DNA of 64,000 nucleotides, from positions 22,789,400 through 22,853,399 of the forward strand of contig CM049322.1 in assembly GCA_026874595.1 (NCBI GenBank). The letters run 5' to 3'. The notes below the pieces were generated by a model, which worked only from the letters and a program-made list of their open reading frames with translations, ran no database searches and was not told the DNA's origin. This document shows positions 35,182 through 64,000 of the stretch, piece after piece (position 1 is the first letter of the stretch; each line of letters opens with the position of its first letter). This stretch comes from Sipunculus nudus. Its lineage: Eukaryota; Annelida; Sipuncula; Golfingiida; Sipunculidae. Position numbers and translations under genes: made by a program.

Positions 35182-38100
35182 ATGAATCCTAGGTTCCTCA
35201 AGACGTTTTTCTTTACAATAATTGGTGGATGTGTTTTAATGATAATCACAGAGTACATGAAGACAAATGAAAAGGTAGAGAGAAGTAGGAGGATATTTAA
35301 TCTGATTCAGTCAAGTAAAACGGAAGAAAGCAAAGAGGGGAACCATTTTCAGGCGGAGAAAGAGATAGAGGAGCAGGCGGAAAGAACATTTGAGTCCGGA
35401 CTATCCATAGGTAAGTAGATAACGTATAAAGCCATGTAGCCAGTGGCGGATCCAGAAATACGAGAACAGAAGCCCTATATATTGGGTATTATTAAATCTA
35501 TAGGTTCTTTAAATTTTTATTTCATCTTTTTCACCATATGCTCCTTTAAAAAATATAGGTATATGGGGAGGATATTCGAGGGGCTGTCCAACTCCAATAT
35601 TGGAATTTTTTTAAAATATGAAATGTAAAGAGGACATTTTGAGGTACATGTCACATAAATTATGAGGATTTTCTTTTAGGGGTTGAAGGTATGTTAACCT
35701 GTGGCCGGCTTTCATGATTATATTTCTTCAAATATAATAAATATAAATATAAGGATATTAACCGGAGAGCTTATGTTAAAAACTTATGTAAATGTGAAAA
35801 TGTTTATAACTTGCAAAATATTATCACAGGAAAGCCGTGCTTCACTCACAAGGGATGGGATTTGTAGGGTTCCTCGGTGTTATGTCCCAGCTGAGTGTAA
35901 TATCATATAGACTCATATATTTATACTATATAAAAATGTTTGGATGCTATCTTAATATAGACTCAATCACAAAGCTGTTTATTAATATCCTCAACTTATG
36001 AACTGAAAAGCAATAAACTTTGGATGATATAATAATCTAATTTTTAGGGAATAAAAAAGAAATTTGAAAAATGAAAATTAATTACGAGTAAATTGTAAAA
36101 GAAATAGAAAAAAAATGAGAGATGTTTCTGATCAAAGAAAAAATGGGAAAAGAAATAGATAAAATGAGAGATGTTTCAGATCAAGGGGGGGGGGGGCGCC
36201 CGCAACACCCCCCCCCCCCCCCCCAGATCAGCCACTGCATGAAGCTAATCCATATAAAACCAGGCTGAGGATGTGGCGAGATTGAAGATGCTGGTAGCGA
36301 TACTACCAGGCTGTTGATGTTTGCAATTTTAGTAACACGTTGACTTGATGTTGGCAAATGTTCAGTCAGGATGTTGATGTTGGCAACTATAAAACCACGT
36401 TGGCTTGTTGATGTTGGCAACTGTAGAACCACGTTGACTTGTTGATGTTGGCAACTGTTCAGTCAGGATGTTGATGTTGGCAACTGTAGAACCACGTTGA
36501 CTTGTTCGTGTTGGCAACTGTTGAAAAACGATGATTTGTTGATGTTGGCAAATTTAGAACCACGTTGACATGTTGGTGTTGACAACTGTAAAACTACGTT
36601 GACTTGTTGATGTTGGCAACTGTTCAGTCAGGATGGTGATGTTGGCAACTGTCGAACCACGTTGATTTGTTGGTGTTAACTACTGTACAAGTTGAATTGT
36701 TGATTTTCCCAACCGTTAAACATGTTGACTTGTTGCTGACTACTATACAACCAAGTTGATGATTTTGGTAGTAAAACTGCCAAGTTGTTTATGCTTAATA
36801 GTATTCAACCACCTTGTTGATGGCGGCAGCTAAATAAGCCATTATTGATATTTTACAGCAAGAATGTTAATGTAGGCAGCAGGCTTGGTTTCAAATTCGA
36901 CTATTAGTACTGATAACACCACAATGTACTTCATGTTAGGGATCTGGGATAGGGTGATAAGTATGCTACCTAGTCCGATCTACTTAAATATCCAGGGTGA
37001 TGCAAGCCTGACAGTTAAAAACTAGAGTTCTTAACTGCGCTGAAATGATTGACAGCTTGTCAGTATGGTGGACACTATAAAGTATTTCATTTTACGTTAA
37101 AATAAATAATTCTGAATGGCTAATTGAAAAATAATAAGCATTTATGGAACAAACTATGAAAATATAAATAATACAAGTCACTTATGAAAAAATGGTTAAA
37201 ATGATTTACAGGAAAGGCAGACCGGAGCACTGATACAACATAGAACTTTATGCATTGCATGCATTTCCATTTTCAGTTACAGCTGTCGTTTAAAGGCAAA
37301 TGCAAAATGAGTTACTGGTGGCACAGTATTTAAATAAAAATGCGACATTTTTAAATGCAAATGCATTTTTTCCAATCTAACCCTTGCCTCCGCATGACTT
37401 TGTTGATACGTTAATTCAAGATCTGTCTGATATATAAGATTTTATTTTAAATTATTTGATATATTCATCGTTTGAATTTTTTAAGTATGTGTCGATGAAA
37501 AAAAAATTGTTTTCGATGTTAAATTGTACATTATAATGAACCAATGCATTATGGATATTAAACTCACCCCAACATGTATCGAAATTTATGTCTAAGAAAA
37601 GAATAGACTAATAAAGTGGACAAGGGCACTAAATAATGCTCATTTTACTATCTCATGATCCCTGAAGACCCGTATGTATTTTAACGACTGACTTTGTATT
37701 ACTAGGCTCTCCATTAAGAGTCTTCAGCCCAAGAGTGTTTTGCGGTATCATGGCCAGCATTAAATATGCAGAAGAAGGTGCGTATGCAGTCAACAAAACA
37801 TGGGCCCCGAGATGTGATTATCCACATTTCATGTTTTCTGAACAAAACAAAAGAAACTGGACTCTCCTGGGGGCTGTGAACCTCCCGGTAAGGGAGGGGT
37901 GGTCTTTCATCACAGAAAAGACCCAGGCCACGTTTAAATGGGCTTACAGTATGTACAAGGACAAGGTGGGCTGGTATATGAAAGCTGATGATGATACATA
38001 CGTCATCATGGAAAACCTGAAATATCTTCTATATGGGATTGATCCCGATAAACCCTACTATTTAGGATGGAGGATGATGAATGCGAATAAGGCTAATCAC

Positions 38101-38409
38101 TATGGCTACCATCAAGGAGGAGCTGGGTAGGTTTAGCAAACTTTGGATTAATAAATGGCCGTTAACAAGCTATGTGTGGTCGCATCCCAGAGGAATGAAT
38201 CATTGCTCGACCGAATTGCGTTCCTGTTACCATTTATAACATATAGTAACTAAATATATAGTAGTTACCTGCGATCTGTATTGTATCAGTTGCGCCAGTA
38301 TTTGACCAAATCGTCTAACTAGCACTATATATTTTAACGATTTTGATGTTTACTTCAACCTAGAGAATCAATTTTTCCTGCATTTAATATATTAATATAT
38401 ACTTGTATT

Positions 38410-40860: not shown

Positions 40861-40992
40861 TAAGTATGTAAGTGTGCAAGAAAACTTCCGGTCACATGGC
40901 TCAAGGATAGAGACGTGTTTCTGAGAGCTCCGTCAATTTTTGATTTAACATCACCTGAATGTCGCTTTAGTGGTCGCTCAAGAGGTACAAAT

Positions 40993-41952
40993 ATGTCTCA
41001 TACAAGAAGTAAGACAGGAAAAAAACCTGGACAGACAGTTGGTGAAATGGATAAATTTATTGAGAGAGAACCAGGGAGGCAGGGCAGTACGGAGGCCACG
41101 TCATGTGAGGAGGGACTGGGAGCAATGGCCACTGCTACGGACTTGAACACACAGGTAGGCCAACAAAATATTATGACAGAGATAAAACGTCTGGTTCAAA
41201 TCTCAAACAAAGAACTAAGTGAGCAAATTAACAAAATGCATGTTGACCTGAAAGGTCAAATGGATTTACTGACAACAGAGCAAACAAACATAAAGAAAAC
41301 TGTACATGTGCTAGAAACAGGTTTACAGTCGCTGGACAATACAGTAGAAGAATACAAAGGCCGAGAGCAAAGACTTTCAAAGGAGGTTGATATGTTACGG
41401 AAGCAGGTGAATGATTTGCAAGATAAAACAAGAATTTCTGAATTACATTTGGAAAACCTTAGAAAGCAATTACAGGAAGAAACAAATAAACAAGAACGAT
41501 ATATGAGGGAATGGAACTTGTGAATTATAGGTGTTGGGGAAGTAGGGAAAGCTGAAAACTGTGTGAACACTGCTACAAAAATCATCGCTGAAAATAAACT
41601 GCTTGGGGACGCAAATGAAACACAGATAAGGGATAAGATTTAAATAGCACACAGGACAGGCAGAAAGGGTAACGACCAAGGCACATTATTGTCAGGTTTC
41701 ACAGTCGACTGATCAGAAACGAGGTCATAATAAAAAGCAAACAGAAACTTCAAGGAAACCAGACCCGGTTTGTTGAAGACCTGACTGCCGCGGATTATCA
41801 AACGAAACGGAGGGCCAAACCGCAGAACGACCGCAGCATTCAATGACGGACAGAGAGTGCGCTTTTGGCGAGGGAAGCTCTATGTGAACGGGGAACCAGT
41901 AATCAACCAGGGTCTTCCTAGCAACACAGCTGACACAACGGAGGTCGAGTAG
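40993..41952 (+). pseudogene. LINE ORF1 (L1-type RNA-binding protein), broken
   Basis: From ATG 40993 the frame codes a basic N-terminus (HTRSKTGKKPG) and a long coiled coil at about residues 55-170 ('LSKEVDMLRKQVNDLQDKTR'). After a TGA at 41521 the frame continues 'IIGVGEVGKAENCVNTATK' and meets a TAA at 41641 before 'IAHRTGRKGN'. In another frame 'RPRHIIVRFHSRLIRNEVI' follows, matching the conserved RPRxIIVRF core of L1 ORF1p, then an alpha/beta C-terminal part that needs one more frameshift near 41840. The ORF ends at TAG 41950-41952. ORF1p normally trimerises and binds the element RNA. There are two stops and about two frameshifts. Confidence 0.85.
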
Positions 41953-42591
41953 TAGGTCAGATGACGAAACAAACAGGTTTTGGGCTTATAAGGGACCATT
42001 CTGTTATTGTTTTTGGACTTATTGTGATGTTTACCTGAGCACGTGGTAAGCGCGGGATTTTCCATGTTATCGCCTAGCTCGGATTCCGGCCTGTCTTGCG
42101 CTCCATTGCGCGGGGCAGGATGGGAACGGGGCTGGGCTTCCCTGTGCGTTGCTTAAGCACCAAGTTAAAGGTAGCACCGTGATAGAGCGAATACTATGGC
42201 GACGTTAACAAACTGCCAGACGGGGCGCGAGCTCAGTTAGAAGCAGAGACTTTTGAGCTTTAGAGAGGTGCTAGGTTTAGTATTTATGTGACACGGACAT
42301 AGGTTGTTATATTTTGGTACTTCACGTTTGGTGAGTAATGTATTGTTGTATTTATGTAATTTGTATATGTTCAGTATTCCCAAATTATGTAAGTAAGTAT
42401 GCATGTTATTACCGAAGACATGCTTCACTCTTGGAGATTGGAATGTTAATAACAGTGATTAAGATATTCAACTTAAAGTTAAATAACGAGAGATGTGTTG
42501 TTAGTGTAATATATTATGTAGAGATTTTTGGTAATGTTATTTGTGGCAAATTGAAATTGTTAACGAACAGATTTAGTACAATATTCTTCAG
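41953..42591 (+). other. Inter-ORF spacer of the LINE
   Basis: About 640 bp lie between the inferred ORF1 stop and the ORF2 ATG. It is GC-richer than its surroundings at 42050-42240. I see no continuation of either ORF and no separate element boundaries. Confidence 0.5.
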
Positions 42592-45500
42592 ATGGAGGAT
42601 GTAAAAATATTTTCACTTAATGTTAGGGGGCTGCAGAATTACATGAAACAAAGACAGTTATTTTATTGGCTACAGAAGAAACAACATAACATAATACTTT
42701 TACAAGAAACTCATAGTTCCTCCAACACTGCTTCGCAGTGGAAAGCTGAATGGGGACATTTGATGATTTTAAATCATGCAGATATGAATGCTCGCGGTGT
42801 TGCTATATTAATAAAAAATAAATTATCTCATGATATACATAATATTTACATGGATAAGGATGGGAGAACCATCGTGTTGGACATAACTATTGGTAATTTA
42901 CGTTTAAACTTATGCAATGTATATGCCCCAAACAGATCTAACCCTGAATTTTACATGAATTTATTCCATAAACTGGAAACAACTGATAATGAAACTAATC
43001 TAATTGGAGGCGATTGGAACACTGTCATTAATACTAAACTAGACAAAACTTCAATTACATATACTGGCTATAGTCGAGTTATCTCCACTCTACATGAGTG
43101 GATGGAGGAATTGGATCTGATAGATCCCTGGCGTTATCTAAATCCAATTAAAAGACAATTTACCTGGTCCCGATTGAATCCCAAGTATACAGCCAGCAGA
43201 ATAGATTTTTTTCTCATTTCCAGAATATTGACAAATTACACCAGAAGTGCTAAAATAACACATGGTTACAAAACTGACCATTCAGCAATAGATCTTTGCA
43301 TTAAAACTTTTCATAACAAACGTGGCCCAGGATTTTGGAAGTTAAATCTGTCATTATTAAGAGATAAGGACTAAGGAAAATATAAAAAATGTATCAAGGA
43401 AACTGCAGAAGAAAATAACGAAGCTAATCGTAACTTGCTTTGGGATACAATCAAAATGTCAATACGAAGAACGTGTATCAGTCATGGTATTAATGAAAAA
43501 AAAGAAAAGAAAATCAGAAATAGTCCTTCTAGAACAGGAAATAAATAAAATGAAAAATCACCCTAATTACCCAAATGCATTGCTTTGTCTGCAAATTAAA
43601 GAAGCTGAAGAAAAACTAAATAAATTTCTAGAGATTAAAACAAAAGGAGCGATTGTTCGGAGCAAAATAAGATGGTATGAAGAAGGAGAAAAATCTACAA
43701 AATACTTTCTGAACATGGAAAAACGAAACTATAATAAGAAACTTATAAGTAAATTGAATAATGATGGAAATATGATTTATGATCCAAATGAGATATTAAA
43801 AGCAGAGAGACACTATTTTGAAAAATTATTTACATCTGGACCTTCATATAGGCCACAAAAATTAAATACATTTATACATAAACACAATATGCAGGTCAGA
43901 AAAATTAAAAATGCAACAGGGAGTGGAAAGCTAACTGAAGCAGAATTATTTCAAAGTATGAGATCTTTTAAAAACGGAAAATCACCAGGAAGTGATGGAC
44001 TTCAAATAGAATTTTATAAAATATTTTGGCAGGACATAAAACCTTATTTCATGGATTCTGTACATTACTCTTTTGAGACAGGCTTATTACCAATAACACA
44101 AAGACAAGGTATAATCAGTTTATTACCAAAAAAAGGAAAAGATCTTCAATATTTGAAAAACTGGAGACCTCTTACTATACTAAATTGCGATTATAAGATT
44201 ATTTCAAAGTGCATATCAAATAGAATAAAAGCTGTAATTCCTGATCTAATCAATGATGACCAAACCGGTTTTATTAGTGGACGCTACATAGGTGAGAATA
44301 TTAATAAGGTAATTACATTGATAAATAATATAAGTAACATGAAACATAAAGCTTTCCTACTGACAGTCGATTATGAAAAGGCTTTTGATTTTTTAGAATG
44401 GGAATATATATATAAATCCTTAGAAAATATGAACTTTGATGAAGTGACAATTTCGATGATAAAGACAATGTATAATGATATCAGTAGTTGTATTATGAAT
44501 AACGGATACAACTCCGGTTTCTTTAAGGTCTCTAGAGGAGTAAGACAGGGTTGTCCACTGTCACCTTTATTATTTGTGTTGAGTATAGAATTACTAGCTA
44601 GTGTTATTAGAGCAGAAAGTAATATTAAAGGTATAGATTATCAAAACAATTTATTTAAAATAGCTCAGTATGCGGATGATACGATTCTATTTCTTATAGA
44701 TATTAACAGTATTAGTCATGTTATTAAGTTATTTCATGAATTTAGTCATGTATCAGGACTAAAAATTAATTTAGAAAAAACACATGTTATGCCAATGAGT
44801 ACAGTAAAATACACTGAAAAGGATGAAGTTAGAAAATTGGAGCTTTCCTGGGTCAATCAGGTGAATATACTGGGAGTCATAATAACATCGTCATTACAAA
44901 ATGTTATAAATTTGAACTATATCCCAAAAATAAATAAAATAAAAAGCATAATATCAGTCTGGACAGAGAGAAAGCTTACTCCAAAGGGGAAGATCACTAT
45001 TATTAAATCATTCATAATGTCACAATTTATTTATTTACTATCTGTACTACCAAGCCCACCGAAACATATTTTTGCACAAGTTGATAAAATGATATATAAA
45101 TTTATATGGGGTAAAGGTAGAGAGTTAATAAAAAGAAATATCTTAATTGCACCTAAAGAAGAAGGTGGCCTGAGTATGAATCATTTATGTTCTCAAGATG
45201 CATCACTTAAAATTGCTTGGATAAAAAGGATACTATGTAAAGAATCAGATAACTCATGGAGAAAGGTTGTTTTACATAATTTTAAAATGGGTGAACATTC
45301 ATTTAAGTGTAACCTTGCAGATCAGGACAGAAAAGAAATATGTAGGAACTATATATGTTTTTGGGATGATGTGTTATCTGCCTGGTGTAAATACAATTAT
45401 CATGTTCCAGTTGTGTATGATGATATAATACGGCAAGGGTTGTGGTTTAATTCTCATATCAGGATAAATAACAGAGTAGTTTTCTATAGGAAACTATTTG

Positions 45501-46341
45501 ATGCTGGAGTGAAATATATTAAAGATATAGTCAGTACTTCACAGTCAGATTCAGTTTGGATGAGTTATCAAGAGTTTTGTGATAAGTATAATGTACATAT
45601 TGATTTCCTTAGCTACCATGGACTATTAAGGGCAATTCCAGAAACATGGGAAAGTACTATAAAAAGTCACGATAGGCTCACAGCATTATCGCCAAGTATT
45701 TGTTTAGTGGATAGACTTATAACCAAAAAAGATGGCACAAAACAAGTGTATGCAGATATATTAAAGAAAATTTCAGAAAAACCATACAATACGATTTTAA
45801 AATGGAACAAAGAATTTAATGGTGAAATAGGAAATAAGATATTAAAAGGATTTGAAAATATATATTCATCAACAATATCTAGTAAACTGCAATATTTTCA
45901 GTTTAGAATCCTGCACCGCAGAGTGAACTGAACCCTTTCTTGTTCAGGATTAAGAAAATAGATCATAATAAGTGTTCCTTCTGCAAATCTTGTGAAGAAA
46001 CATTATTACACTTTTTCTGGAAATGTGATTTCACGAAACTATTGTGGAGAGATATATTGTTGGAGTTAAAGCAACATGGTTCAGTCAGTTCCACATACAG
46101 ATGGTCTGTGGAGAATGTTATTTTAGGGTGCGATGATGATAACTGGATGAACTTTTTAACATTGATGGTAAAGAGGTATTTATATATTACTAGATGTGGT
46201 AATGAAAAGCCAACGAAAGGGGGGGTTCAATATTTTATTAAAGCCACATTGAATATTGAAAAAGAAATTGCAATAAAAAATGACAAGTTAAACCAACACC
46301 ATATTAAGTGGGCACCAATACTGTGTATACTCGAAGAGTAA
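42592..46341 (+). pseudogene. LINE ORF2: endonuclease, reverse transcriptase and zinc finger, broken into three frames
   Basis: Segment 1 (42592-43374) is an exonuclease/endonuclease/phosphatase fold with SLNVRGLQ (Asn10), LLQETHS (Glu39), NVYAPN, GGDWNTV, SRIDFFLIS and TDHSAI. It ends at a TAA at 43372, beyond which the same frame continues 'GKYKKCIKETAEENN'. A frameshift in an A/G run near 43492-43510 leads to segment 2 (to 45931): GKSPGSDG, NWRPLTILNCDYKI, DDQTGFISGRYIGENI, LLTVDYEKAFDFLEW, RGVRQGCPLSPLLF and the catalytic QYADDTILF. A second frameshift, a likely 1-nt loss at about 45928-45931, leads to segment 3 (to 46341) with the zinc knuckle CSFCKSCEETLLHFFWKC (C-x2-C-x8-H-x4-C). Catalytic residues are intact; only the frame is broken. 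The motifs fit the L1/Tx1 group and no RNase H follows. Confidence 0.92.
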
Positions 46342-46460
46342 CTGAATATTTGTTTAATTTTATCAAAAAGGTAAACTTAGTTAAAAAGGATGCTGAAAAT
46401 GATCGTATTATTGTGATACAAATATATAAGACAATATAGTAACATAATATAAAATAAAGG

Positions 46461-47541
46461 AGAAAGCAATCAAGTGTTCCGTATTGAGGTCGGTCATTGC
46501 AAACATAGTAGTATACACTGGTGTTTATAATATGCTGAGGTTGAACCGGCTGGTGACAGCATCAGGGTTAGATGCGACTGTGCAGAATCGGGCTCACAAG
46601 TGTACCCACCTCTGATGAAAAGGTTTTTTTTCGTCCAATACTGGAATAATTCATGTATTCCGGTTGAGGATCGAAAATGATATTTAAGTTCATGTATGCA
46701 CTTGACGTTACATTTTCTAACTTTTGCCTTAGCAAATTTATTAATTAATTTAGAAAGGTCAATTTCCCGTTGACACACATGCGCAATATTCATTATGGAG
46801 AGATAATTTGAGCTAGTTTGATCCGTGTTACTCCTTAGTTCATTCCTTATTGTTTGCAGTGCTGACAAAGAATTTGTTTGTCAAAATAAGTGATAAATAT
46901 ATGCGCAAGGTATTTCTACACAAGAGAAACAAGACACGAAAGAATAATCAGTGATAAACTGATTCAGCTGTAAAATTTGTATAATATAAACAATATTAAT
47001 AATTTTGGTTCACTCTCTTTGGAATAAATACAAAATTCCACTCAAGGATTCATGTAAAGGCTTAAAACAAGTTGTCTTTTGATATACCACTGGTGATAGT
47101 ATTGGGGTTAATTCAGCTGATAACTATGTCAAAAAAATAACACGGTCTTTCACAAGACCTATACATGAATTATTTTATGCTTAAAATGGTAAATGTAATT
47201 GCAATTGAAACATATATATATCATATATAGAATTAGGAGGAACTCCGGCGCATCACCACTATATGCCACATGTTCAAAAGATATATTATTTATATGCCAT
47301 CTGAATCGATGTAATAAACTGACGTTTTATAATTAATACTTTTAAGATTATACTGCGCGTAGAGCTGATAAAATTTTCTCTGATTCTGAAAAAAATTCTC
47401 GCAAAAAATGACATTTTAAAGTATGTTTTTGTCTTCGAGCATATTACTATTAAAGAAACAAGTTTTCCAGTGTTTTAAATCTGTCCTCACCTTTTCCAAT
47501 CATGAAATATTTGTCTGATATTCGTTGGGGCAGCCGATATT

Positions 47542-47545
<4 letters not shown>
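46461..47545. other. AT-rich spacer before the satellite array
   Basis: No credible gene. The 124-codon minus-strand frame at 46494-46868 has no recognised domain. The segment around 46545-46640 is slightly GC-richer and is not repeated elsewhere in the window as far as I can see. Confidence 0.5.

Positions 47546-47612
<67 letters not shown>
47546..47612. repeat. (AT)n microsatellite at the edge of the satellite array
   Basis: About 33 AT dinucleotides with one 'aaat' interruption. It ends within five bases of the first recognisable satellite monomer. Confidence 0.94.
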
Positions 47613-47613
<1 letters not shown>

Positions 47614-47616
47614 CAT

Positions 47617-50600
47617 TATATGAAATGAGATTCATGAAAGAGGCTATCTCTGGTCATTATCCCAGTCAGCTTAATGAGAAATGAGATTCATGGGAGGAGC
47701 TAAGTCTGGTAATTATCCCAGTCAGTTTAATGAGAAATGAGATTCATGAGAGGAGCTAAGTCTGGTAATTATCCTAGTCAGTTTAATGAGAAATGAGATT
47801 CATGAGAGGAGCTTACTCAGGTCATTATACCAGTCAGTTTAATGAGAAATGAGATTCATGAGAGGAGCTAACTCAGGTCATTATCCCAGACAGCTTAATG
47901 AGAAATCAGATTAATGAGAGGAGCTAACTCTGGTGATTATCCCAGTCAGCTTAATGAGAAATGAGATTCACGAGAGGAGCTAACTCAGGTCATTATCCCA
48001 GTCAGTTTAATGAGAAATGAGATTAATGAGAGGAGCTAACTCAGGTCATTATCCCAGTCAGTTTAATGAGAAATGAGATTCATGAGAGGAGCTAAATCAG
48101 GTCATTTTCCAAGACAGCTTAATGAGAAATGAGATTAATGAGAGGAGCTAAGTCTGGTAATTATCCCAGTCAGCTTAATGAGAAATGAGATTCACGAGAG
48201 GAGCTAACTCAGGTCATTATCCCAGTCAGTTTAATGAGAAATGAGATTAATGAGAGGAGCTAACTCAGGTCATTATCCCAGTCAGTTTAATGAGAAATGA
48301 GATTCATGAGAGGAGCTAACTCTGGACATTATCCCAGTCAGTTTAATGAGAAATGAGATTCATGAGAGGAGCTAACTTTGGTGATTATCCTAGACAGTTT
48401 AATGAGAAATGAGATTCATGAGAGAAGCTAACTCTGGACATTATCCCAGTCAGTTTAATGAGAAATAAGATTCATGAGAGGAGCTTACTTTGGTGATTAT
48501 CCCAGTCAGTTTAATGAGAAATGAGATTCACGAGAGGAGATAACTCTGGACATTATCCCAGTCAGTTTAATGAGAAATGAGATTCATGAGAGGAGCTAAC
48601 TCTGGTGATTATCCCAGTCAGCTTAATGAGAAATAAGATTCATGAGAGGAGCTAACTCTGGTGATTATCCCAGTCAGTTTAATGAGAAATGAGATTCATG
48701 AGAGGAGCTAAGTCTGGTAATTATCCCAGTCAGTTTAATGAGAAATGAGATTCATGAGAGGAGCTAACTCAGGTCATTATCCCAGACAGCTTAATGAGAA
48801 ATGAGATTAATGAGAGGAGTTAACTCTGGTGATTATCCCAGTCAGCTTAATGAGAAATGAGATTCACGAGAGGAGCTAACTCAGGTCATTATCCCAGTCA
48901 GTTAAATGAGAAATGAGATTAATGAGAGGAGCTAACTAAGGTCATTATCCCAGTCAGTTTAATGAGAAATGAGATTCATGAGAGGAGCTAACTCAGGTCA
49001 TTTTCCAAGACAGCTTAATGAGAAATGAGATTAATGAGAGGAGCTAAGTCTGGTAATTATCCCAGTCAGCTTAATGAGAAATGAGATTCACGAGAGGAGC
49101 TAACTCAGGTCATTATCCCAGTCAGTTTAATGAGAAATGAGATTAATGAGAGGAGCTAACTCAGGTCATTATCCCAGTCAGTTTAATAAAAAATGAGATT
49201 CATGGGAGGAGCTAACTCTGGACATTATCCCAGTCAGTTTAATGAGAAATGAGATTCATGAGAGGAGCTTACTCAGGTCATTATCCCAGTCAGTTTAATG
49301 AGAAATGAGATTCACGAGAGTAGCTTACTCTGGACATGATCCCAGTCAGTTTAATGAGAAATAAGATTCATGAGAGGAGCTAACTCAGGTCATTATCCCA
49401 GTCAGTTTAATGAGAAATGAGATTCATGAGAGGAGCCAACTCTGGTGATTATCCCAGTCAGTATAATGAGAAATGAGATTCATGAGAGGAGCTAACTCTG
49501 GACATTATCCCAGTCAGTTTAATGAGAAATGAGATTCATGAGAGGAGCTAACTCAGGTCATTATCCCAGTCAGTTTAATGAGAAATGAGATTCATGAGGG
49601 GAGCCAACTCTGGTGATTATCCCAGTCAGTATAATGAGAAATGAGATTCATGAGAGGAGCTAACTCAGGTCATTATCCCAGTCAGCTTAATGAGAAATGA
49701 GATTAATGAGAGGAGCTAATGCAGGTCATTATCCCAGTCAGTTTAATGAGAAATGAGATTCATGAGAGGAGCTAACTCTGGACATTATCCCAGTCAGTTT
49801 GATGAGAAATAAAATTCATGAGAGGAGCTAACTTTGGTGATTATCCCAGTCAGTTTAATGAGAAATGAGATTCACGAGAGGAGCTTACTCAGGTGATTAT
49901 CTCAGTCAGCTTAATGAGAAATGAAATTCACGAGAGGAGCTTACTCAGGTCATTATCCCAGTCAGTTTAATGAGAAATGAGATTAATGAGAGGAGCTAAC
50001 TCAGGTCATTATCCCAGTCAGTTTAATGAGAAATGAGATTCATGAGAGGAGCTAACTCTGGACATTATCCCAGTCAGTTTAATGAGAAATGAGATTAATG
50101 AGAGGAGCTAACTCAGGTCATTATCCCAGTCAGTTTAATGAGAAATGAGATTCATGAGAGGAGCTAACTCTGGACATTATCCTAGTCAGTTTAATGAGAA
50201 ATGAGATTCATGAGAGGAGCTAACTCAGGTCATTATCCCAGTCAGTTTAATGAGAAATGAGATTCATGAGAGGAGCCAACTCTGGTGATTATCCCAGTCA
50301 GTATAATTAGAAATGAGATTCATGAGAGGAGCTAACTCAGGTCATTATCCCAGTCAGCTTAATGAGAAATGAGATTAATGAGAGGAGCTAATGCAGGTCA
50401 TTATTCCAGTCAGTTTAATGAGAAATGAGATTCATGAGAGGAGCTAACTCTGGACATTATCCCAGTCAGTTTGATGAGAAACAAAATTCATCAGAGGAGC
50501 TAACTTTGGTCATTATCCCAGTCAGTTTAATGAGAAATGAGATTCACGAGAGGAGCTAACTCTGGACATTATCCCAGTCAGTTTAATGAGAAATGAGATT

Positions 50601-53600
50601 CATGAGAGGACCTAACTTTGGTGATTATCCCAGTCAGTTTAATGAGAAATGAGATTCATGAGAACAGCTAACTCTGGACATTATCCCAGTCAGTTTAATG
50701 AGAAATGAGATTCATGAGAGGAGCTAAGTCTGGTAATTATCCCAGTCAGTTTAATGAGAAATGAGATTCATGAGAGGAGCTAACTCAGGTCATTATCCCA
50801 ATCAGCTTAATGAGAAATGAGATTAATGAGAGGAGCTAATGCAGGTCATTATCCAAGTCAGTTTAATGAGAAATGAGATTTATGAGAGGAGCTAACTCTG
50901 GACATTATCCCAGTCAGTTTGATGAGAAATAAAATTCATCAGAGGAGCTAACTTTGGTGATTATCCCAGTCAGTTTAATGAGAAATGAGATTCACGAGAG
51001 GAGCTAACTCTGGTGATTATCCCAGTCAGTTTAATGAGAAATGAGATTCATGAGAGGAGCTAAGTCTGGTAATTATCCCAGTCAGTTTAATGAGAAATGA
51101 GATTCATGAGAGGAGCTAACTCAGGTCATTATCCCAGACAGCTTAATGAGAAATGAGATTAATGAGAGGAGTTAACTCTGGTGATTATCCCAGTCAGCTT
51201 AATGAGAAATGAGATTCACGAGAGGAGCTAACTCAGGTCATTATCCCAGTCAGTTAAATGAGAAATGAGATTAATGAGAGGAGCTAACTCAGGTCATTAT
51301 CCCAGTCAGTTTAATGAGAAATGAGATTCATGAGAGGAGCTAACTCAGGTCATTTTCCAAGACAGCTTAATGAGAAATGAGATTAATGAGAGGAGCTAAG
51401 TCTGGTAATTATCCCAGTCAGCTTAATGAGAAATGAGATTCACGAGAGGAGCTAACTCAGGTCATTATCCCAGTCAGTTTAATGAGAAATCAGATTAATG
51501 AGAGGAGCTAACTCAGGTCATTATCCCAGTCAGTTTAATAAAAAATGAGATTCATGGGAGGAGCTAACTCTGGACATTATCCCAGTCAGTTTAATGAGAA
51601 ATGAGATTCATGAGAGGAGCTAACTCAGGTCATTATCCCAGTCAGTTTAATGAGAAATGAGATTCACGAGAGGAGCTTACTCTGGACATTATCCCAGTCA
51701 GTTTAATGAGAAATAAGATTCATGAGAGGAGCTAACTCAGGTCATTATCCCAGTCAGTTTAATGAGAAATGAGATTCATGAGAGGAGCCAACTCTGGTGA
51801 TTATCCCAGTCAGTATAATGAGAAATGAGATTCATGAGAGGAGCTAACTCTGGACATTATCCCAGTCAGTTTAATGAGAAATGAGATTCATGAGAGGAGC
51901 TAACTCAGGTCATTATCCCAGTCAGCTTAATGAGAAATGAGATTAATGAGAGGAGCTAATGCAGGTCATTATCCCAGTCAGTTTAATGAGAAATGAGATT
52001 CATGAGAGGAGCTAACTCTGGACATTACCCCAGTCAGTTTGATGAGAAATAAAATTCATGAGAGGAGCTAACTTTGGTGATTATCCCAGTCAGTTTAATG
52101 AGAAATGAGATTCACGAGAGGAGCTTACTCAGGTGATTATCTCAGTCAGCTTAATGAGAAATGAGACTCACGAGAGGAGCTTACTCAGGTCATTATCCCA
52201 GTCAGTTTAATGAGAAATGAGATTAATGAGAGGAGCTAACTCAGGTCATTATCCCAGTCAGTTTAATGAGAAATGAGATTCATGAGAGGAGCTAACTCTG
52301 GACATTATCCCAGTCAGTTTAATGAGAAATGAGATTAATGAGAGGAGCTAACTCAGGTCATTATCCCAGTCAGTTTAATGAGAAATGAGATTCATGAGAG
52401 GAGCTAACTCTGGACATTATCCTAGTCAGTTTAATGAGAAATGAGATTCATGAGAGGAGCTAACTCAGGTCATTATCCCAGTCAGTTTAATGAGAAATGA
52501 GATTCATGAGAGGAGCCAACTCTGGTGATTATCCCAGTCAGTATAATGAGAAATGAGATTCATGAGAGGAGCTAACTCAGGTCATTATCCCAGTCAGCTT
52601 AATGAGAAATGAGATTAATGAGAGGAGCTAATGCAGGTCATTATCCCAGTCAGTTTAATGAGAAATGAGATTAATGAGAACAGCTAACTCTGGACATTAT
52701 CCCAGTCAGTTTAATGAGAAATAAGTTTCATGAGAGGAGCTAACTTAAGTGATTTTCCCAGTCAGTTTTATGAGAAATGAGTTTCATGAGAGGAGCTAAC
52801 TCTGGACATTATCCCAGTCAGTTTAATGAGAAATGAGATTCATGAGAGGAGCTTACTCTGGTGATTATCCCACTCAGCTTAATGAGAAATAAGATTTATG
52901 AGAGGAGCTAACTCTGGTTATTATCCCAGTCAGTTTAATGAGAAATGAGATTCATGAGAGGAGCTAACTTTGGTGATTATCCCAGACAGTTTAATGAGAA
53001 ATGAGGTTCATGAGAGAAGCTAACTCTGGACATTTTCCCAGTCAGTTTAATGAGATATAAGATTCATGAGAGGAGCTTACTTTGGTGATTATCCTAGTCA
53101 GTTTAATGAGAAATGAGATTCACGAGAGGAGCTAACTCTGGACATTATCCCAGTCAGTTTAATGAGAAATGAGATTCATGAGAGGAGCTAACTCTGGTGA
53201 TTATCCCAGTCAGTTTAATGAGAAATGAGATTCATGAGAGGAGCTAACTCAGGTGATTATCCCAGTCAGTTTAACGAGAAATGAGATTCACGAGAGGAGC
53301 TTACTCTGGACATTATCCCAGTCAGTTTAATGTGAAATGAGATTAATGAGAGGAGCTAACTCAGGTCATTATCCCAGTCAGTTTAATGAGAAATGAGATT
53401 CATGAGAGGAGCTTACTCAGTTTAATTTTCCCAGAAAGCTTAATGAGAAATGAGACTAATGAGAGGAGCTAACTCTGGTGATTATCTCAGTCAGCTTAAT
53501 GAGAAATGAGATTCACGAGAGGAGCTTACTCAGGTCATTATCCCAGTCAGTTTAATGAGAAATGAGATTAATGAGAGGAGCTAACTCAGGTCATTATCCC

Positions 53601-56600
53601 AGTCAGTTTAATGAGAAATGAGATTCATGAGAGGAGCTAACTCTGGACATTATCCCAGTCAGTTTAATGAGAAATGAGATTAATGAGAGGAGCTAACTCA
53701 GGTCATTATCTCAGTCAGTTTAATGAGAAATGAGATTCATGAGAGGAGCTAACTCTGGACATTATCCCAGTCAGTTTAATGAGAAATGAGATTCATGAGA
53801 GGAGCTAACTCAGGTCATTATCCCAGTCAGTTTAATGAGAAATGAGATTCATGAGAGGAGCCAACTCTGGTGATTATCCCAGTCAGTATAATGAGAAATG
53901 AGATTCATGAGAGGAGCTAACTCTGGACATTATCCCAGTCAGTTTAATGAGAAATGAGATTCATGAGAGGAGCTAACTCAGGTCATTATCCCAGTCAGTT
54001 TAATGAGAAATGAGATTCATGAGAGGAGCCAACTCTGGTGATTATCCCAGTCAGTATAATGAGAAATGAGATTCATGAGAGGAGCTAACTCAGGTCATTA
54101 TCCCAGTCAGCTTAATGAGAAATGAGATTAATGAGAGGAGCTAATGCAGGTCATTATCCCAGTCAGTTTAATGAGAAATGAGATTCATGAGAGGAGCTAA
54201 CTCTGGACATTATCCCAGTCAGTTTGATGAGAAATAAAATTCATGAGAGGAGCTAACTTTGGTGATTATCCCAGTCAGTTTAATGAGAAATGAGATTCAC
54301 GAGAGGAGCTTACTCAGGTGATTATCTCAGTCAGCTTAATGAGAAATGAGATTCACGAGAGGAGCTTACTCAGGTCATTATCCCAGTCAGTTTAATGAGA
54401 AATGAGATTCACGAGAGGAGCTTACTCAGGTGATTATCTCAGTCAGCTTAATGAGAAATGAGATTCACGAGAGGAGCTAATGCAGGTCATTATCCCAGTC
54501 AGTTTAATGAGAAATGAGATTCATGAGAGGAGCTAACTCTGGACATTTTCCCAGTCAGTTTAATGAGATATAAGATTCATGAGAGGAGCTTACTTTGGTG
54601 ATTATCCTAGTCAGTTTAATGAGAAATGAGATTCACGAGAGGAGCTAACTCAGGTCATTATCCCAGTCAGCTTAATGAGAAATGAGATTAATGAGAGGAG
54701 CTAATGCAGGTCATTATCCCAGTCAGTTTAATGAGAAATGAGATTCATGAGAGGAGCTAACTCTGGACATTATCCCAGTCAGTTTGATGAGAAACAAAAT
54801 TCATCAGAGGAGCTAACTTTGGTCATTATCCCAGTCAGTTTAATGAGAAATGAGATTCACGAGAGGAGCTTACTCAGGTGATTATCTCAGTCAGCTTAAT
54901 GAGAAATGAGATTCACGAGAGGAGCTTACTCAGGTCATTATCCCAGTCAGTTTAATGAGAAATGAGATTCACGAGAGGAGCTTACTCAGGTGATTATCTC
55001 AGTCAGCTTAATGAGAAATGAGATTCACGAGAGGAGCTAATGCAGGTCATTATCCCAGTCAGTTTAATGAGAAATGAGATTCATGAGAGGAGCTAACTCT
55101 GGACATTTTCCCAGTCAGTTTAATGAGATATAAGATTCATGAGAGGAGCTTACTTTGGTGATTATCCTAGTCAGTTTAATGAGAAATGAGATTCACGAGA
55201 GGAGCTAACTCAGGTCATTATCCCAGTCAGCTTAATGAGAAATGAGATTAATGAGAGGAGCTAATGCAGGTCATTATCCCAGTCAGTTTAATGAGAAATG
55301 AGATTCATGAGAGGAGCTAACTCTGGACATTATCCCAGTCAGTTTGATGAGAAACAAAATTCATCAGAGGAGCTAACTTTGGTCATTATCCCAGTCAGTT
55401 TAATGAGAAATGAGATTCACGAGAGGAGCTAACTCTGGACATTATCCCAGTCAGTTTAATGAGAAATGAGATTCATGAGAGGACCTAACTTTGGTGATTA
55501 TCCCAGTCAGTTTAATGAGAAATGAGATTAATGAGAACAGCTAACTCTGGACATTATCCCAGTCAGTTTAATGAGAAATAAGTTTCATGAGAGGAGCTAA
55601 CTTAAGTGATTTTCCCAGTCAGTTTTATGAGAAATGAGTTTCATGAGAGGAGCTAACTCTGGACATTATCCCAGTCAGTTTAATGAGAAATGAGATTCAT
55701 GAGAGGAGCTTACTCTGGTGATTATCCCACTCAGCTTAATGAGAAATAAGATTTATGAGAGGAGCTAACTCTGGTTATTATCCCAGTCAGTTTAATGAGA
55801 AATGAGATTCATGAGAGGAGCTAACTTTGGTGATTATCCCAGACAGTTTAATGAGAAATGAGGTTCATGAGAGAAGCTAACTCTGGACATTTTCCCAGTC
55901 AGTTTAATGAGATATAAGATTCATGAGAGGAGCTTACTTTGGTGATTATCCTAGTCAGTTTAATGAGAAATGAGATTCACGAGAGGAGCTAACTCTGGAC
56001 ATTATCCCAGTCAGTTTAATGAGAAATGAGATTCATGAGAGGAGCTAACTCTGGTGATTATCCCAGTCAGTTTAATGAGAAATGAGATTCATGAGAGGAG
56101 CTAACTCAGGTGATTATCCCAGTCAGTTTAACGAGAAATGAGATTCACGAGAGGAGCTTACTCTGGACATTATCCCAGTCAGTTTAATGTGAAATGAGAT
56201 TAATGAGAGGAGCTAACTCAGGTCATTATCCCAGTCAGTTTAATGAGAAATGAGATTCATGAGAGGAGCTTACTCAGTTTAATTTTCCCAGAAAGCTTAA
56301 TGAGAAATGAGACTAATGAGAGGAGCTAACTCTGGTGATTATCTCAGTCAGCTTAATGAGAAATGAGATTCACGAGAGGAGCTTACTCAGGTCATTATCC
56401 CAGTCAGTTTAATGAGAAATGAGATTAATGAGAGGAGCTAACTCAGGTCATTATCCCAGTCAGTTTAATGAGAAATGAGATTCATGAGAGGAGCTAACTC
56501 TGGACATTATCCCAGTCAGTTTAATGAGAAATGAGATTAATGAGAGGAGCTAACTCAGGTCATTATCTCAGTCAGTTTAATGAGAAATGAGATTCATGAG

Positions 56601-59600
56601 AGGAGCTAACTCTGGACATTATCCCAGTCAGTTTAATGAGAAATGAGATTCATGAGAGGAGCTAACTCAGGTCATTATCCCAGTCAGTTTAATGAGAAAT
56701 GAGATTCATGAGAGGAGCCAACTCTGGTGATTATCCCAGTCAGTATAATGAGAAATGAGATTCATGAGAGGAGCTAACTCTGGACATTATCCCAGTCAGT
56801 TTAATGAGAAATGAGATTCATGAGAGGAGCTAACTCAGGTCATTATCCCAGTCAGTTTAATGAGAAATGAGATTCATGAGAGGAGCCAACTCTGGTGATT
56901 ATCCCAGTCAGTATAATGAGAAATGAGATTCATGAGAGGAGCTAACTCAGGTCATTATCCCAGTCAGCTTAATGAGAAATGAGATTAATGAGAGGAGCTA
57001 ATGCAGGTCATTATCCCAGTCAGTTTAATGAGAAATGAGATTCATGAGAGGAGCTAACTCTGGACATTATCCCAGTCAGTTTGATGAGAAATAAAATTCA
57101 TGAGAGGAGCTAACTTTGGTGATTATCCCAGTCAGTTTAATGAGAAATGAGATTCACGAGAGGAGCTTACTCAGGTGATTATCTCAGTCAGCTTAATGAG
57201 AAATGAGATTCACGAGAGGAGCTTACTCAGGTCATTATCCCAGTCAGTTTAATGAGAAATGAGATTAATGAGAGGAGCTAACTCAGGTCATTATCCCAGT
57301 CAGTTTAATGAGAAATGAGATTCATGAGAGGAGCTAACTCTGGACATTATCCCAGTCAGTTTAATGAGAAATGAGATTAATGAGAGGAGCTAACTCAGGT
57401 CATTATCCAAGTCAGTTTAATGAGAAATGAGATTCATGAGAGGAGCTAACTCTGGACATTATCCTAGTCAGTTTAATGAGAAATGAGATTCATGAGAGGA
57501 GCTAACTCAGGTCATTATCCCAGTCAGTTTAATGAGAAATGAGATTCATGAGAGGAGCCAACTCTGGTGATTATCCCAGTCAGTATAATTAGAAATGAGA
57601 TTCATGAGAGGAGCTAACTCAGGTCATTATCCCAGTCAGCTTAATGAGAAATGAGATTAATGAGAGGAGCTAATGCAGGTCATTATCCCAGTCAGTTTAA
57701 TGAGAAATGAGATTCATGAGAGGAGCTAACTCTGGACATTATCCCAGTCAGTTTGATGAGAAACAAAATTCATCAGAGGAGCTAACTTTGGTCATTATCC
57801 CAGTCAGTTTAATGAGAAATGAGATTCACGAGAGGAGCTAACTCTGGACATTATCCCAGTCAGTTTAATGAGAAATGAGATTCATGAGAGGACCTAACTT
57901 TGGTGATTATCCCAGTCAGTTTAATGAGAAATGAGATTCATGAGAACAGCTAACTCTGGACATTATCCCAGTCAGTTTAATGAGAAATAAGTTTCATGAG
58001 AGGAGCTAACTTAAGTGATTATCCCAGTCAGTTTAATGAGAAATGAGTTTCATGAGAGGAGCTAACTCTGGACATTATCCCAGTCAGTTTAATGAGAAAT
58101 GAGATTCATGAGAGGAGCTTACTCTGGTGATTATCCCACTCAGCTTAATGAGAAATAAGATTTATGAGAGGAGCTAACTCTGGTTATTATCCCAGTCAGT
58201 TTAATGAGAAATGAGATTCATGAGAGGAGCTAACTTTGGTGATTATCCCAGACAGTTTAATGAGAAATGAGGTTCATGAGAGAAGCTAACTCTGGACATT
58301 TTCCCAGTCAGTTTAATGAGATATAAGATTCATGAGAGGAGCTAACTTTGGTGATTATCCCAGTCAGTTTAATGAGAAATGAGATTCACGAGAGGAGCTT
58401 ACTCAGGTGATTATCTCAGTCAGCTTAATGAGAAATGAGATTCACGAGAGGAGCTTACTCATGTCATTATCCCAGTCAGTTTAATGAGAAATGAGATTAA
58501 TGAGAGGAGCTAACTCAGGTCATTATCCCAGTCAGTTTAATGAGAAATGAGATTCATGAGAGGAGCTAACTCTGGACATTATCCCAGTCAGTTTAATGAG
58601 AAATGAGATTAATGAGAGGAGCTAACTCAGGTCATTATCCCAGTCAGTTTAATGAGAAATGAGATTCATGAGAGGAGCTAACTCTGGACATTATCCTAGT
58701 CAGTTTAATGAGAAATGAGATTCATGAGAGGAGCTAACTCAGGTCATTATCCCAGTCAGTTTAATGAGAAATGAGATTCATGAGAGGAGCCAACTCTGGT
58801 GATTATCCCAGTCAGTATAATGAGAAATGAGATTCATGAGAGGAGCTAACTCAGGTCATTATCCCAGTCAGCTTAATGAGAAATGAGATTAAAGAGAGGA
58901 GCTAATGCAGGTCATTATCCCAGTCAGTTTAATGAGAAATGAGATTCATGAGAGGAGCTAACTCTGGACATTATCCCAGTCAGTTTGATGAGAAACAAAA
59001 TTCATCAGAGGAGCTAACTTTGGTCATTATCCCGGTCAGTTTAATGAGAAATGAGATTCACGAGAGGAGCTAACTCTGGACATTATCCCAGTCAGTTTAA
59101 TGAGAAATGAGATTCATGAGAGGACCTAACTTTGGTGATTATCCCAGTCAGTTTAATGAGAAATGAGATTCATGAGAACAGCTAACTCTGGACATTATCC
59201 CAGTCAGTTTAATGAGAAATAAGTTTCATGAGAGGAGCTAACTTAAGTGATTATCCCAGTCAGTTTAATGAGAAATGAGTTTCATGAGAGGAGCTAACTC
59301 TGGACATTATCCCAGTCAGTTTAATGAGAAATGAGATTCATGAGAGGAGCTTACTCTGGTGATTATCCCACTCAGCTTAATGAGAAATAAGATTTATGAG
59401 AGGAGCTAACTCTGGTTATTATCCCAGTCAGTTTAATGAGAAATGAGATTCATGAGAGGAGCTAACTTTGGTGATTATCCCAGACAGTTTAATGAGAAAT
59501 GAGGTTCATGAGAGAAGCTAACTCTGGACATTTTCCCAGTCAGTTTAATGAGATATAAGATTCATGAGAGGAGCTTACTTTGGTGATTATCCTAGTCAGT

Positions 59601-62600
59601 TTAATGAGAAATGAGATTCACGAGAGGAGCTAACTCTGGACATTATCCCAGTCAGTTTAATGAGAAATGAGATTCATGAGAGGAGCTAACTCTGGTGATT
59701 ATCCCAGTCAGTTTAATGAGAAATGAGATTCATGAGAGAAGCTAACTCAGGTGATTATCCCAGTCAGTTTAATGAGAAATGAGATTCACGAGAGGAGCTT
59801 ACTCTGGACATTATCCCAGTCAGTTTAATGTGAAATGAGATTAATGAGAGGAGCTAACTCAGGTCATTATCCCAGTCAGTTTAATGAGAAATGAGATTCA
59901 TGAGAGGAGCTTACTCAGTTTAATTTTCCCAGAAAGCTTAATGAGAAATGAGACTAATGAGAGGAGCTAACTCTGGTGATTATCTCAGTCAGCTTAATGA
60001 GAAATGAGATTCACGAGAGGAGCTTACTCAGGTCATTATCCCAGTCAGTTTAATGAGAAATGAGATTAATGAGAGGAGCTAACTCAGGTCATTATCCCAG
60101 TCAGTTTAATGAGAAATGAGATTCATGAGAGGAGCTAACTCTGGACATTATCCCAGTCAGTTTAATGAGAAATGAGATTAATGAGAGGAGCTAACTCAGG
60201 TCATTATCCCAGTCAGTTTAATGAGAAATGAGATTCATGAGAGGAGCTAACTCTGGACATTATCCCAGTCAGTTTAATGAGAAATGAGATTCATGAGAGG
60301 AGCAAACTCTGGTGATTATCCCAGTCAGTATAATGAGAAATGAGATTCATGAGAGGAGCTAACTCAGGTCATTATCCCAATCAGCTTAATGAGAAATGAG
60401 ATTAATGAGAGGAGCTAATGCAGGTCATTATCCAAGTCAGTTTAATGAGAAATGAGATTTATGAGAGGAGCTAACTCTGGACATTATCCCAGTCAGTTTG
60501 ATGAGAAATAAAATTCATCAGAGGAGCTAACTTTGGTGATTATCCCAGTCAGTTTAATGAGAAATGAGATTCACGAGAGGAGCTAACTCTGGTGATTATC
60601 CCAGTCAGTTTAATGAGAAATGAGATTCATGAGAGGAGCTAACTCAGGTCATTATCCCAGACAGCTTAATGAGAAATGAGATTAATGAGAGGAGTTAACT
60701 CTGGTGATTATCCCAGTCAGCTTAATGAGAAATGAGATTCACGAGAGGAGCTAACTCAGGTCATTATCCCAGTCAGTTAAATGAGAAATGAGATTAATGA
60801 GAGGAGCTAACTCAGGTCATTATCCCAGTCAGTTTAATGAGAAATGAGATTCATGAGAGGAGCTAACTCAGGTCATTTTCCAAGACAGCTTAATGAGAAA
60901 TGAGATTAATGAGAGGAGCTAAGTCTGGTAATTATCCCAGTCAGCTTAATTAGAAATGAGATTCACGAGAGGAGCTAACTCAGGTCATTATCCCAGTCAG
61001 TTTAATGAGAAATGAGATTAATGAGAGGAGCTAACTCAGGTCATTATCCCAGTCAGTTTAATAAAAAATGAGATTCATGGGAGGAGCTAACTCTGGACAT
61101 TATCCCAGTCAGTTTAATGAGAAATGAGATTCATGAGAGAAGCTAACTCAGGTGATTATCCCAGTCAGTTTAATGAGAAATGAGATTCACGACAGGAGCT
61201 TACTCTGGACATTATCCCAGTCAGTTTAATGTGAAATGAGATTAATGAGAGGAGCTAACTCAGGTCATTATCCCAGTCAGTTTAATGAGAAATGAGATTC
61301 ATGAGAGGAGCTTACTCAGTTTAATTTTCCCAGAAAGCTTAATGAGAAATGAGACTAATGAGAGGAGCTAACTCTGGTGATTATCTCAGTCAGCTTAATG
61401 AGAAATGAGATTCACGAGAGGAGCTTACTCAGGTCATTATCCCAGTCAGTTTAATGAGAAATGAGATTAATGAGAGGAGCTAACTCAGGTCATTATCCCA
61501 GTCAGTTTAATGAGAAATGAGATTCATGAGAGGAGCTAACTCTGGACATTATCCCAGTCAGTTTAATGAGAAATGAGATTAATGAGAGGAGCTAACTCAG
61601 GTCATTATCCCAGTCAGTTTAATGAGAAATGAGATTCATGAGAGGAGCTAACTCTGGACATTATCCCAGTCAGTTTAATGAGAAATGAGATTCATGAGAG
61701 GAGCCAACTCTGGTGATTATCCCAGTCAGTATAATGAGAAATGAGATTCATGAGAGGAGCTAACTCAGGTCATTATCCCAATCAGCTTAATGAGAAATGA
61801 GATTAATGAGAGGAGCTAATGCAGGTCATTATCCAAGTCAGTTTAATGAGAAATGAGATTTATGAGAGGAGCTAACTCTGGACATTATCCCAGTCAGTTT
61901 GATGAGAAATAAAATTCATCAGAGGAGCTAACTTTGGTGATTATCCCAGTCAGTTTAATGAGAAATGAGATTCACGAGAGGAGCTAACTCTGGTGATTAT
62001 CCCAGTCAGTTTAATGAGAAATGAGATTCATGAGAGGAGCTAACTCAGGTCATTATCCCAGACAGCTTAATGAGAAATGAGATTAATGAGAGGAGTTAAC
62101 TCTGGTGATTATCCCAGTCAGCTTAATGAGAAATGAGATTCACGAGAGGAGCTAACTCAGGTCATTATCCCAGTCAGTTAAATGAGAAATGAGATTAATG
62201 AGAGGAGCTAACTCAGGTCATTATCCCAGTCAGTTTAATGAGAAATGAGATTCATGAGAGGAGCTAACTCAGGTCATTTTCCAATACAGCTTAATGAGAA
62301 ATGAGATTAATGAGAGGAGCTAAGTCTGGTAATTATCCCAGTCAGCTTAATGAGAAATGAGATTCACGAGAGGAGCTAACTCAGGTCATTATCCCAGTCA
62401 GTTTAATGAGAAATGAGATTAATGAGAGGAGCTAACTCAGGTCATTATCCCAGTCAGTTTAATAAAAAATGAGATTCATGGGAGGAGCTAACTCTGGACA
62501 TTATCCCAGTCAGTTTAATGAGAAATGAGATTCATGAGAGGAGCTAACTCAGGTCATTATCCCAGTCAGTTTAATGAGAAATGAGATTCACGAGAGGAGC

Positions 62601-64000
62601 TTACTCTGGACATTATCCCAGTCAGTTTAATGAGAAATAAGATTCATGAGAGGAGCTAACTCAGGTCATTATCCCAGTCAGTTTAATGAGAAATGAGATT
62701 CATGAGAGGAGCCAACTCTGGTGATTATCCCAGTCAGTTTAATAAAAAATGAGATTCATGGGAGGAGCTAACTCTGGACATTATCCCAGTCAGTTTAATG
62801 AGAAATGAGATTCATGAGAGAAGCTAACTCAGGTGATTATCCCAGTCAGTTTAATGAGAAATGAGATTCACGACAGGAGCTTACTCTGGACATTATCCCA
62901 GTCAGTTTAATGTGAAATGAGATTAATGAGAGGAGCTAACTCAGGTCATTATCCCAGTCAGTTTAATGAGAAATGAGATTCATGAGAGGAGCTTACTCAG
63001 TTTAATTTTCCCAGAAAGCTTAATGAGAAATGAGACTAATGAGAGGAGCTAACTCTGGTGATTATCTCAGTCAGCTTAATGAGAAATGAGATTCACGAGA
63101 GGAGCTTACTCAGGTCATTATCCCAGTCAGTTTAATGAGAAATGAGATTAATGAGAGGAGCTAACTCAGGTCATTATCCCAGTCAGTTTAATGAGAAATG
63201 AGATTCATGAGAGGAGCTAACTCTGGACATTATCCCAGTCAGTTTAATGAGAAATGAGATTAATGAGAGGAGCTAACTCAGGTCATTATCCCAGTCAGTT
63301 TAATGAGAAATGAGATTCATGAGAGGAGCTAACTCTGGACATTATCCCAGTCAGTTTAATGAGAAATGAGATTCATGAGAGGAGCCAACTCTGGTGATTA
63401 TCCCAGTCAGTATAATGAGAAATGAGATTCATGAGAGGAGCTAACTCAGGTCATTATCCCAATCAGCTTAATGAGAAATGAGATTAATGAGAGGAGCTAA
63501 TGCAGGTCATTATCCAAGTCAGTTTAATGAGAAATGAGATTTATGAGAGGAGCTAACTCTGGACATTATCCCAGTCAGTTTGATGAGAAATAAAATTCAT
63601 CAGAGGAGCTAACTTTGGTGATTATCCCAGTCAGTTTAATGAGAAATGAGATTCACGAGAGGAGCTAACTCTGGTGATTATCCCAGTCAGTTTAATGAGA
63701 AATGAGATTCATGAGAGGAGCTAACTCAGGTCATTATCCCAGACAGCTTAATGAGAAATGAGATTAATGAGAGGAGTTAACTCTGGTGATTATCCCAGTC
63801 AGCTTAATGAGAAATGAGATTCACGAGAGGAGCTAACTCAGGTCATTATCCCAGTCAGTTAAATGAGAAATGAGATTAATGAGAGGAGCTAACTCAGGTC
63901 ATTATCCCAGTCAGTTTAATGAGAAATGAGATTCATGAGAGGAGCTAACTCAGGTCATTTTCCAATACAGCTTAATGAGAAATGAGATTAATGAGAGGAG
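47617..64000. repeat. Satellite DNA: 56-bp monomer, about 290 tandem copies with higher-order structure, runs off the right edge
   Basis: The monomer, phased at 'aatgagaaatgagattcatg', continues 'agaggagctaactc' and then 'aggtcattatcccagtcagt' 'tt'. Successive 'cagttt' landmarks are 56 bp apart. GC is about 39%. The 5' half is made of short ATGAG-type sub-repeats; the 3' half is unique within the unit. Sequence classes differ at fixed places: attcatgag/attaatgag/attcacgag; ctaactcaggtcatt/ctaactctggacatt/ctaactttggtgatt/ctaatgcaggtcatt/ctaagtctggtaatt; cagttt/cagctt/cagtata. These classes recur in long identical orders, giving nested higher-order repeats. The first two or three monomers are the most diverged, as usual at an array edge. 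All frames are full of stops. Pericentromeric, centromeric or other heterochromatic location is possible but not shown by sequence alone. Confidence 0.97.

Follow-up and report, generated by a model that had tools for sequence, protein, structure and literature searches.

The last part of the window (the whole stretch of 64,000 nucleotides that was analysed) is occupied by a head-to-tail array of 56-bp monomers that is a mosaic of serial multimonomer duplications rather than a regular higher-order repeat (HOR) array. We consider it quite probable that this is a non-coding satellite or large minisatellite that was grown and homogenised by in-register homologous unequal exchange. The array and the microsatellite on which it borders are as follows.

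47622 to 64000, + strand: 56-bp satellite array of 292 monomers and a part unit (Tandem Repeats Finder, segmentation, and consensus and core matches).
47544 to 47621, no strand assigned: (TA)n microsatellite directly left of the array (Tandem Repeats Finder and reading of the sequence).

Tandem Repeats Finder reported a period of 56, 292.4 copies, and 90% matches over the array, and segmentation gave 292 whole monomers (287 of 56 bp and 5 of 57 bp), which confirmed the repeat described in an earlier note on this DNA. The start given there, 47617, was 5 bp early, the TA microsatellite ending only at 47621. On the right, a 22-bp part unit stands at the end of the window; the repeat reaches the last base, and this end of the array is therefore open. 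The 292 monomers fell into 82 distinct variants. Among the 287 units of 56 bp, identity to the consensus averaged 94.5% (lowest, 85.7%) and pairwise identity averaged 91.1%, so that the earlier wording "near-perfect" was too strong. All 292 monomers lie in a single orientation (+) and in constant register. A 22-base core pattern, allowing up to 3 mismatches, matched 291 times in the window and not once in 100 shuffles, and the 200 of these 291 matches that were listed were all on the + strand and inside the array. The best matches of the consensus to the minus strand of the whole window (30/56) and to the + strand of positions 1 to 47560 (29/56) were no better than those to shuffled sequence (29 to 30 of 56 in five shuffles).

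A coding repeat was ruled out, since no open reading frame (ORF) of at least 60 amino acids lies wholly within the array; one 60-amino-acid ORF overlaps its start. Neither an Rfam match at the gathering score nor a tRNA was found in the window. Folding of the consensus as RNA gave z values of -0.12 (+) and -0.55 (-), and folding of one dimer gave 0.30 (+) and -2.27 (-; 4/200 shuffles as stable), the last being one of four tests and not counted as evidence. The array is thus a long head-to-tail non-coding array, as in satellite DNA or a large minisatellite; the former label implies abundance and several loci and a variable number tandem repeat (VNTR) implies one locus, and the array is known here from one window.

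Blocks of monomers in this array are far more alike than the monomers themselves. Runs of at least 6 consecutive monomers that recur with no more than 1 mismatch in each monomer numbered 44, and the longest near-identical run in 200 shuffles of monomer order was 5. When block pairs were defined by windows of 8 monomers differing by no more than 1.5%, 33 pairs of at least 8 monomers were obtained, with identities of 98.7 to 99.7% compared to 91.1% between monomers. Nearly all monomers (277/292) fall within some block of at least 8 at 98.5% identity or more, and of the 15 left outside such blocks, 10 belong to the first 18 monomers. Completely identical runs comprised 31, 22, and 10 monomers, together with fourteen of 6 to 9; the longest (1737 bp) starts at 52662 and again at 55519. 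The principal blocks, all on the + strand and found by block comparison, and a marker monomer are as follows.

48630 to 49581, + strand: 17-monomer block with a copy at 50982 to 51933 (lag, 42 monomers; 99.2%).
52662 to 54454, + strand: 32-monomer block with a copy at 55519 to 57311 (lag, 51 monomers or 2857 bp; 99.7%), 31 of the monomers being identical.
54063 to 54902, + strand: 15-monomer stretch matching 54623 to 55462 (lag, 10 monomers or 560 bp; 98.8%).
57088 to 58375, + strand: 23-monomer block with a tandem copy at 58320 to 59607 (lag, 22 monomers or 1232 bp; 99.3%).
59664 to 61232, + strand: 28-monomer block with a tandem copy at 61065 to 62633 (lag, 25 monomers or 1401 bp; 99.2%).
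60953 to 62297, + strand: 24-monomer block with a copy at 62634 to 63978 (lag, 30 monomers or 1681 bp; 99.6%).
53390 to 53446, + strand: 57-bp marker monomer with identical copies starting at 56247, 59888, 61289, and 62970.

Further pairs included 27 monomers at lag 65 (99.1%), a spacing equal to 43 + 22, and 25 monomers at lag 130 (99.4%). The five identical 57-bp monomers are spaced by 2857, 3641, 1401, and 1681 bp, and this marker variant has been carried along with the block copies. Because only 56- and 57-bp units occur, each block lag amounts to whole monomers plus 1 bp for every intervening 57-bp unit. In a gapped self-alignment at the monomer level, the best alignment paired 163 monomers at 99.5%, passing in turn through lags of 42, 40, 24, 27, 51, 43, 22, 28, 16 (one pair), 25, and 30, that is, mainly 22 to 51 monomers.

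These results bear out the earlier proposals that variant monomers recur in the same order in long blocks (44 runs of at least 6 monomers, against a shuffled maximum of 5) and that amplification acted on multimonomer units (33 block pairs and long identical runs), and block identity did exceed general monomer identity in the self-comparison proposed there. The specific unit put forward, a 42-mer of 2352 bp, held only in part. The lag itself is real, monomers 18 to 34 matching 60 to 76, but the match then breaks after 17 monomers and not 42; in a short stretch further on, five monomers, most of them near-identical, show this lag again, and with whole-monomer gaps the alignment continues at lag 40. 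Of the three anchors on which the unit had been based, "agtctggtaa" (48711 and 51063) and "gttaaatgag" (48901 and 51253) were placed exactly, but "ataaaaaatg" lies at 49186 and 51538 rather than 49179 and 51531, i.e., 7 bp away, and all three recur at further places.

A global test of lags 1 to 199, in which the mean difference was scaled for each lag and compared to 500 shuffles, showed that lags 195, 51, 116, 130, 4, and 65 went beyond the lowest shuffled z (-4.21). Lag 51 was the best-supported short lag, yet identical monomers made up only 14.1% of its 241 pairs; this proportion was not exceeded at any of the 12 best lags, and lag 42 was not among them. An unscaled test on raw means, in which long lags with few pairs weighed most and which was too weak, gave a best value of 4.21 against shuffled minima of 3.81 (lowest) and 4.53 (mean), with no lag beyond the shuffles. 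With recurrent, overlapping lags of many lengths, a fixed 42-mer HOR was ruled out, and no single regular n-monomer unit runs across the array (lags 10, 22, 25, 30, 42, 51, and others).

The nesting that the earlier note had described was upheld in the form of three layers, i.e., a 112-bp alternation, the larger blocks, and a local 10-monomer duplication. Monomers at even lags were closer than those at odd lags by 0.37 differences (standard deviation in shuffles, 0.05; largest of 2000 shuffles, 0.14), a contrast carried mostly by monomer sites 12 and 33, so that an alternation with a period of 112 bp underlies the larger blocks. Its z values were uneven along the array (3.1, 2.6, and 1.7 for monomers 0-29, 30-59, and 60-89, and 4.6 for 0-89 together; 4.6 for 90-140, 1.7 for 141-169, 0.4 for 170-205, 2.4 for 206-239, and 1.0 for 240-291), and the alternation is therefore not seen everywhere. 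Of the two copies of the 51-monomer segment, only the first contains the 10-monomer duplication (54063 to 55462); hence, the duplication is probably younger than the copying of that segment, with loss from the second copy being another possible course. The monomers at the left edge differ from the remainder of the array.

47622 to 48741, + strand: left edge of the array, the first 20 monomers, the most diverged by distance to the nearest other monomer.

The mean of that distance was 0.90 for these monomers versus 0.00 to 0.25 in the other bins (Mann-Whitney P = 4e-15 against the other 272 monomers, a value that treats non-independent monomers as independent). Such divergence, known here from the left edge only, is as expected where an edge joins exchange less often.

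The array shows constant register, a single orientation, and segments in series at lags of 10 to 51 monomers. In the mechanism that we propose, unequal sister-chromatid exchange or crossing over, with gene conversion, would expand and homogenise the array through events that copy segments of tens of monomers in register. Constant register, one orientation, differing neighbour segments, and four-allele combinations all fit such exchange and conversion. The last of these refers to eight variable sites, at which all four allele combinations were present for 19/28 pairs, as exchange inside monomers would give; repeated mutation can yield the same patterns. Of three possible routes (homologous exchange, rolling-circle reinsertion, and replication restart), we infer the first, and likewise the order of the amplification layers, and the array would have no sequence-specific job.

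Neighbouring monomers were no more alike than random pairs, the ratio of lag-1 distance to mean pairwise distance being 1.067. Neutral simulations with segment duplication, deletion, and mutation were kept if pairwise differences averaged 4 to 6.5, a filter passed by 2 to 15 of the 96 runs at each setting. The simulated ratio (5 to 95%) was 0.12-0.13 at a mean event length of 1 monomer, 0.28-0.44 at 2, 0.33-0.65 at 3, 0.62-0.88 at 5, 0.84-1.09 at 10, 0.96-1.10 at 20, 0.99-1.13 at 40, and 0.99-1.08 at 80. Within this model, short slippage (1 to 5 monomers) was rejected as the dominant process (0.12 to 0.88 versus 1.067 observed), and the simulations favour events averaging at least 10 monomers. 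The 24 observed runs of at least 8 monomers were above the 5 to 95% range at a mean length of 10 (6.6-16), inside it at 20 and 80, and slightly short of it at 40 (24.6-44.7). The 82 distinct variants exceeded the median of every setting (50-72), and the contrast between even and odd lags, at 0.072 of the mean, was likewise higher than simulated, no setting having a 95% point above 0.05. These misfits in runs, variants, and contrast indicate that the model is incomplete. Moreover, since few runs were kept at each setting and it simulates duplication and deletion and not crossing over, it argues against short slippage and singles out no route.

Several other features were observed elsewhere in the window. 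An exon at 37666 to 38127 is galactosyltransferase-like (Pfam Fringe, E = 2.1e-10; best solved relative, glycoprotein-N-acetylgalactosamine 3-beta-galactosyltransferase 1, E = 3.9e-21). A degenerate LINE, probably L1/Tx1-like, spans three overlapping open stretches at 42577 to 46338, where an endonuclease (E = 7.2e-10), a reverse transcriptase (E = 3.7e-37), and, weakly and under the curated cutoff, zf-RVT were matched; its wider span, 40864 to 46338, includes a leading ORF with no trustworthy Pfam match. These surroundings resemble an animal genome in which genes lie close to the array. A fold-back transposon-like element (16951 to 19785) has 33-nucleotide end arms (16951 to 16983 and 19753 to 19785; 88% complementary) and, just inside them, opposed arrays of degenerate repeats (17061 to 17205 and 19504 to 19648; 83% complementary). 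Other tandem repeats have units of 18 bp (11952 to 12237; 15.9 copies, with at least one open frame on each strand), 40 bp (26712 to 27149; 11 copies), and 34 bp (36312 to 36735), the last showing longer periods of 97 and 165 bp and forming a second nested array in the window. An open stretch of 127 amino acids at 27959 to 28339 contains paired basic residues and has no Pfam match; by impression, it is possibly an exon of a secreted precursor.

Amplification by a rolling circle, in which excised circles of tens of monomers are reinserted into the array, would likewise yield in-register multimonomer blocks in one orientation, and it would provide for the similar blocks found at long distances (lags 130, 195, and 237), a recurrence that counts against unequal exchange. 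However, one circle would give a single fixed repeat length, whereas the segments in series here have several lengths, and none of the 12 best lags among 1 to 199 had more than 14.1% identical pairs; we therefore regard a rolling circle as unlikely. That some of the blocks are contig pieces wrongly repeated in assembly might be suspected from the identical runs (31, 22, and 10 monomers, and the fourteen of 6 to 9). All 33 block pairs nevertheless carry 5 to 13 mismatches over their full length (in the 31-monomer case, all six sit in the single added monomer), and the long self-alignment requires whole-monomer insertions and deletions, so that an artefact of this kind appears highly improbable. 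Equally little probability is assigned to the array being the tandem core of a transposable element, like the Helitron-type satellite arrays of oysters, even though such arrays are common in Crassostrea gigas (PMC8268682). The 25 longest of the 60 inverted pairs in 46200 to 47900 all fall in the TA run, no element ends being seen among them on this left side of the array, and the consensus matched the + strand of 1 to 47560 no better than shuffled sequence.

An active centromeric or pericentromeric satellite, with blocks shaped by centromere function, is a reading that we find quite unlikely. Block organisation and a diverged edge do resemble human centromeric alpha satellite, but the array has the galactosyltransferase-like exon and the degenerate LINE less than 10 kb away; this lowers the likelihood of a centromere core and is compatible with a pericentromere. 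Very unlikely, too, is that the array forms the margin of a functional centromere or of another selected chromosomal structure. If it did, block exchange that is very frequent and continues today would keep the HOR lengths irregular, and the array would preserve a readable three-layer history of 112-bp alternation, blocks of 22 to 51 monomers, and local 10-mer duplication. Unequal exchange in a non-coding array thus remains the reading that we prefer.

Five strings of the 56-bp monomer had no match in the open-access papers searched, a weak negative because it covers papers and not repeat collections such as Repbase and Dfam, and phrase searches of the same papers found no description of a 56-bp satellite, mollusc satellites included. 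The degenerate core pattern, searched for exact matches only, gave none in prokaryote contigs and none in viral contigs, and a distant blastn of 47622 to 50000 against plasmids gave no match. The monomer sequence may therefore be undescribed, judging from these searches, and the kind of array is already known. It is well known that such arrays evolve by copying chunks of tens of repeats at a time, and existing knowledge of them is unchanged. The present array, compact and assembled, lets several amplification layers be read together, and models of satellite evolution could usefully be tested on it.

In the C. gigas satellitome, tandem repeats range from 21 to 3287 bp, and some form long standalone arrays of up to 232 monomers; a 56-bp monomer occurs in 0/53 rows of its Table 1, a comparison by length and not by sequence (PMC8268682). 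The main text of a study of five oyster species contains no "56 bp" (PMC11136912). For mollusc satellites, HOR units have been attributed to unequal crossing over and/or slippage on subrepeats, and the two repeats newly described in that work, Ac4p1 and Ac4p3, have monomers of approximately 726 and 237 bp compared to 56 bp here (PMC5874043). Human centromeric alpha satellite is described as having HORs at centromeres and monomeric copies at centromere edges. It resembles the 56-bp array in its ordered variants, in blocks far more alike than monomers, and in its diverged flank. Alpha satellite has 171-bp monomers and chromosome-specific regular units, whereas the monomer here is 56 bp and there is no fixed unit. 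The human pseudoautosomal region Xp22.33 contains an 18-kb array of a 61-bp VNTR, whose irregular HORs measure 1.6 and 2.5 kb (PMC2588610). Although it lies in a different genome and the likeness is one of description and not of sequence, that array has nearly the same scale and anatomy as the 56-bp array, including a complex HOR arrangement (PMC2588610).
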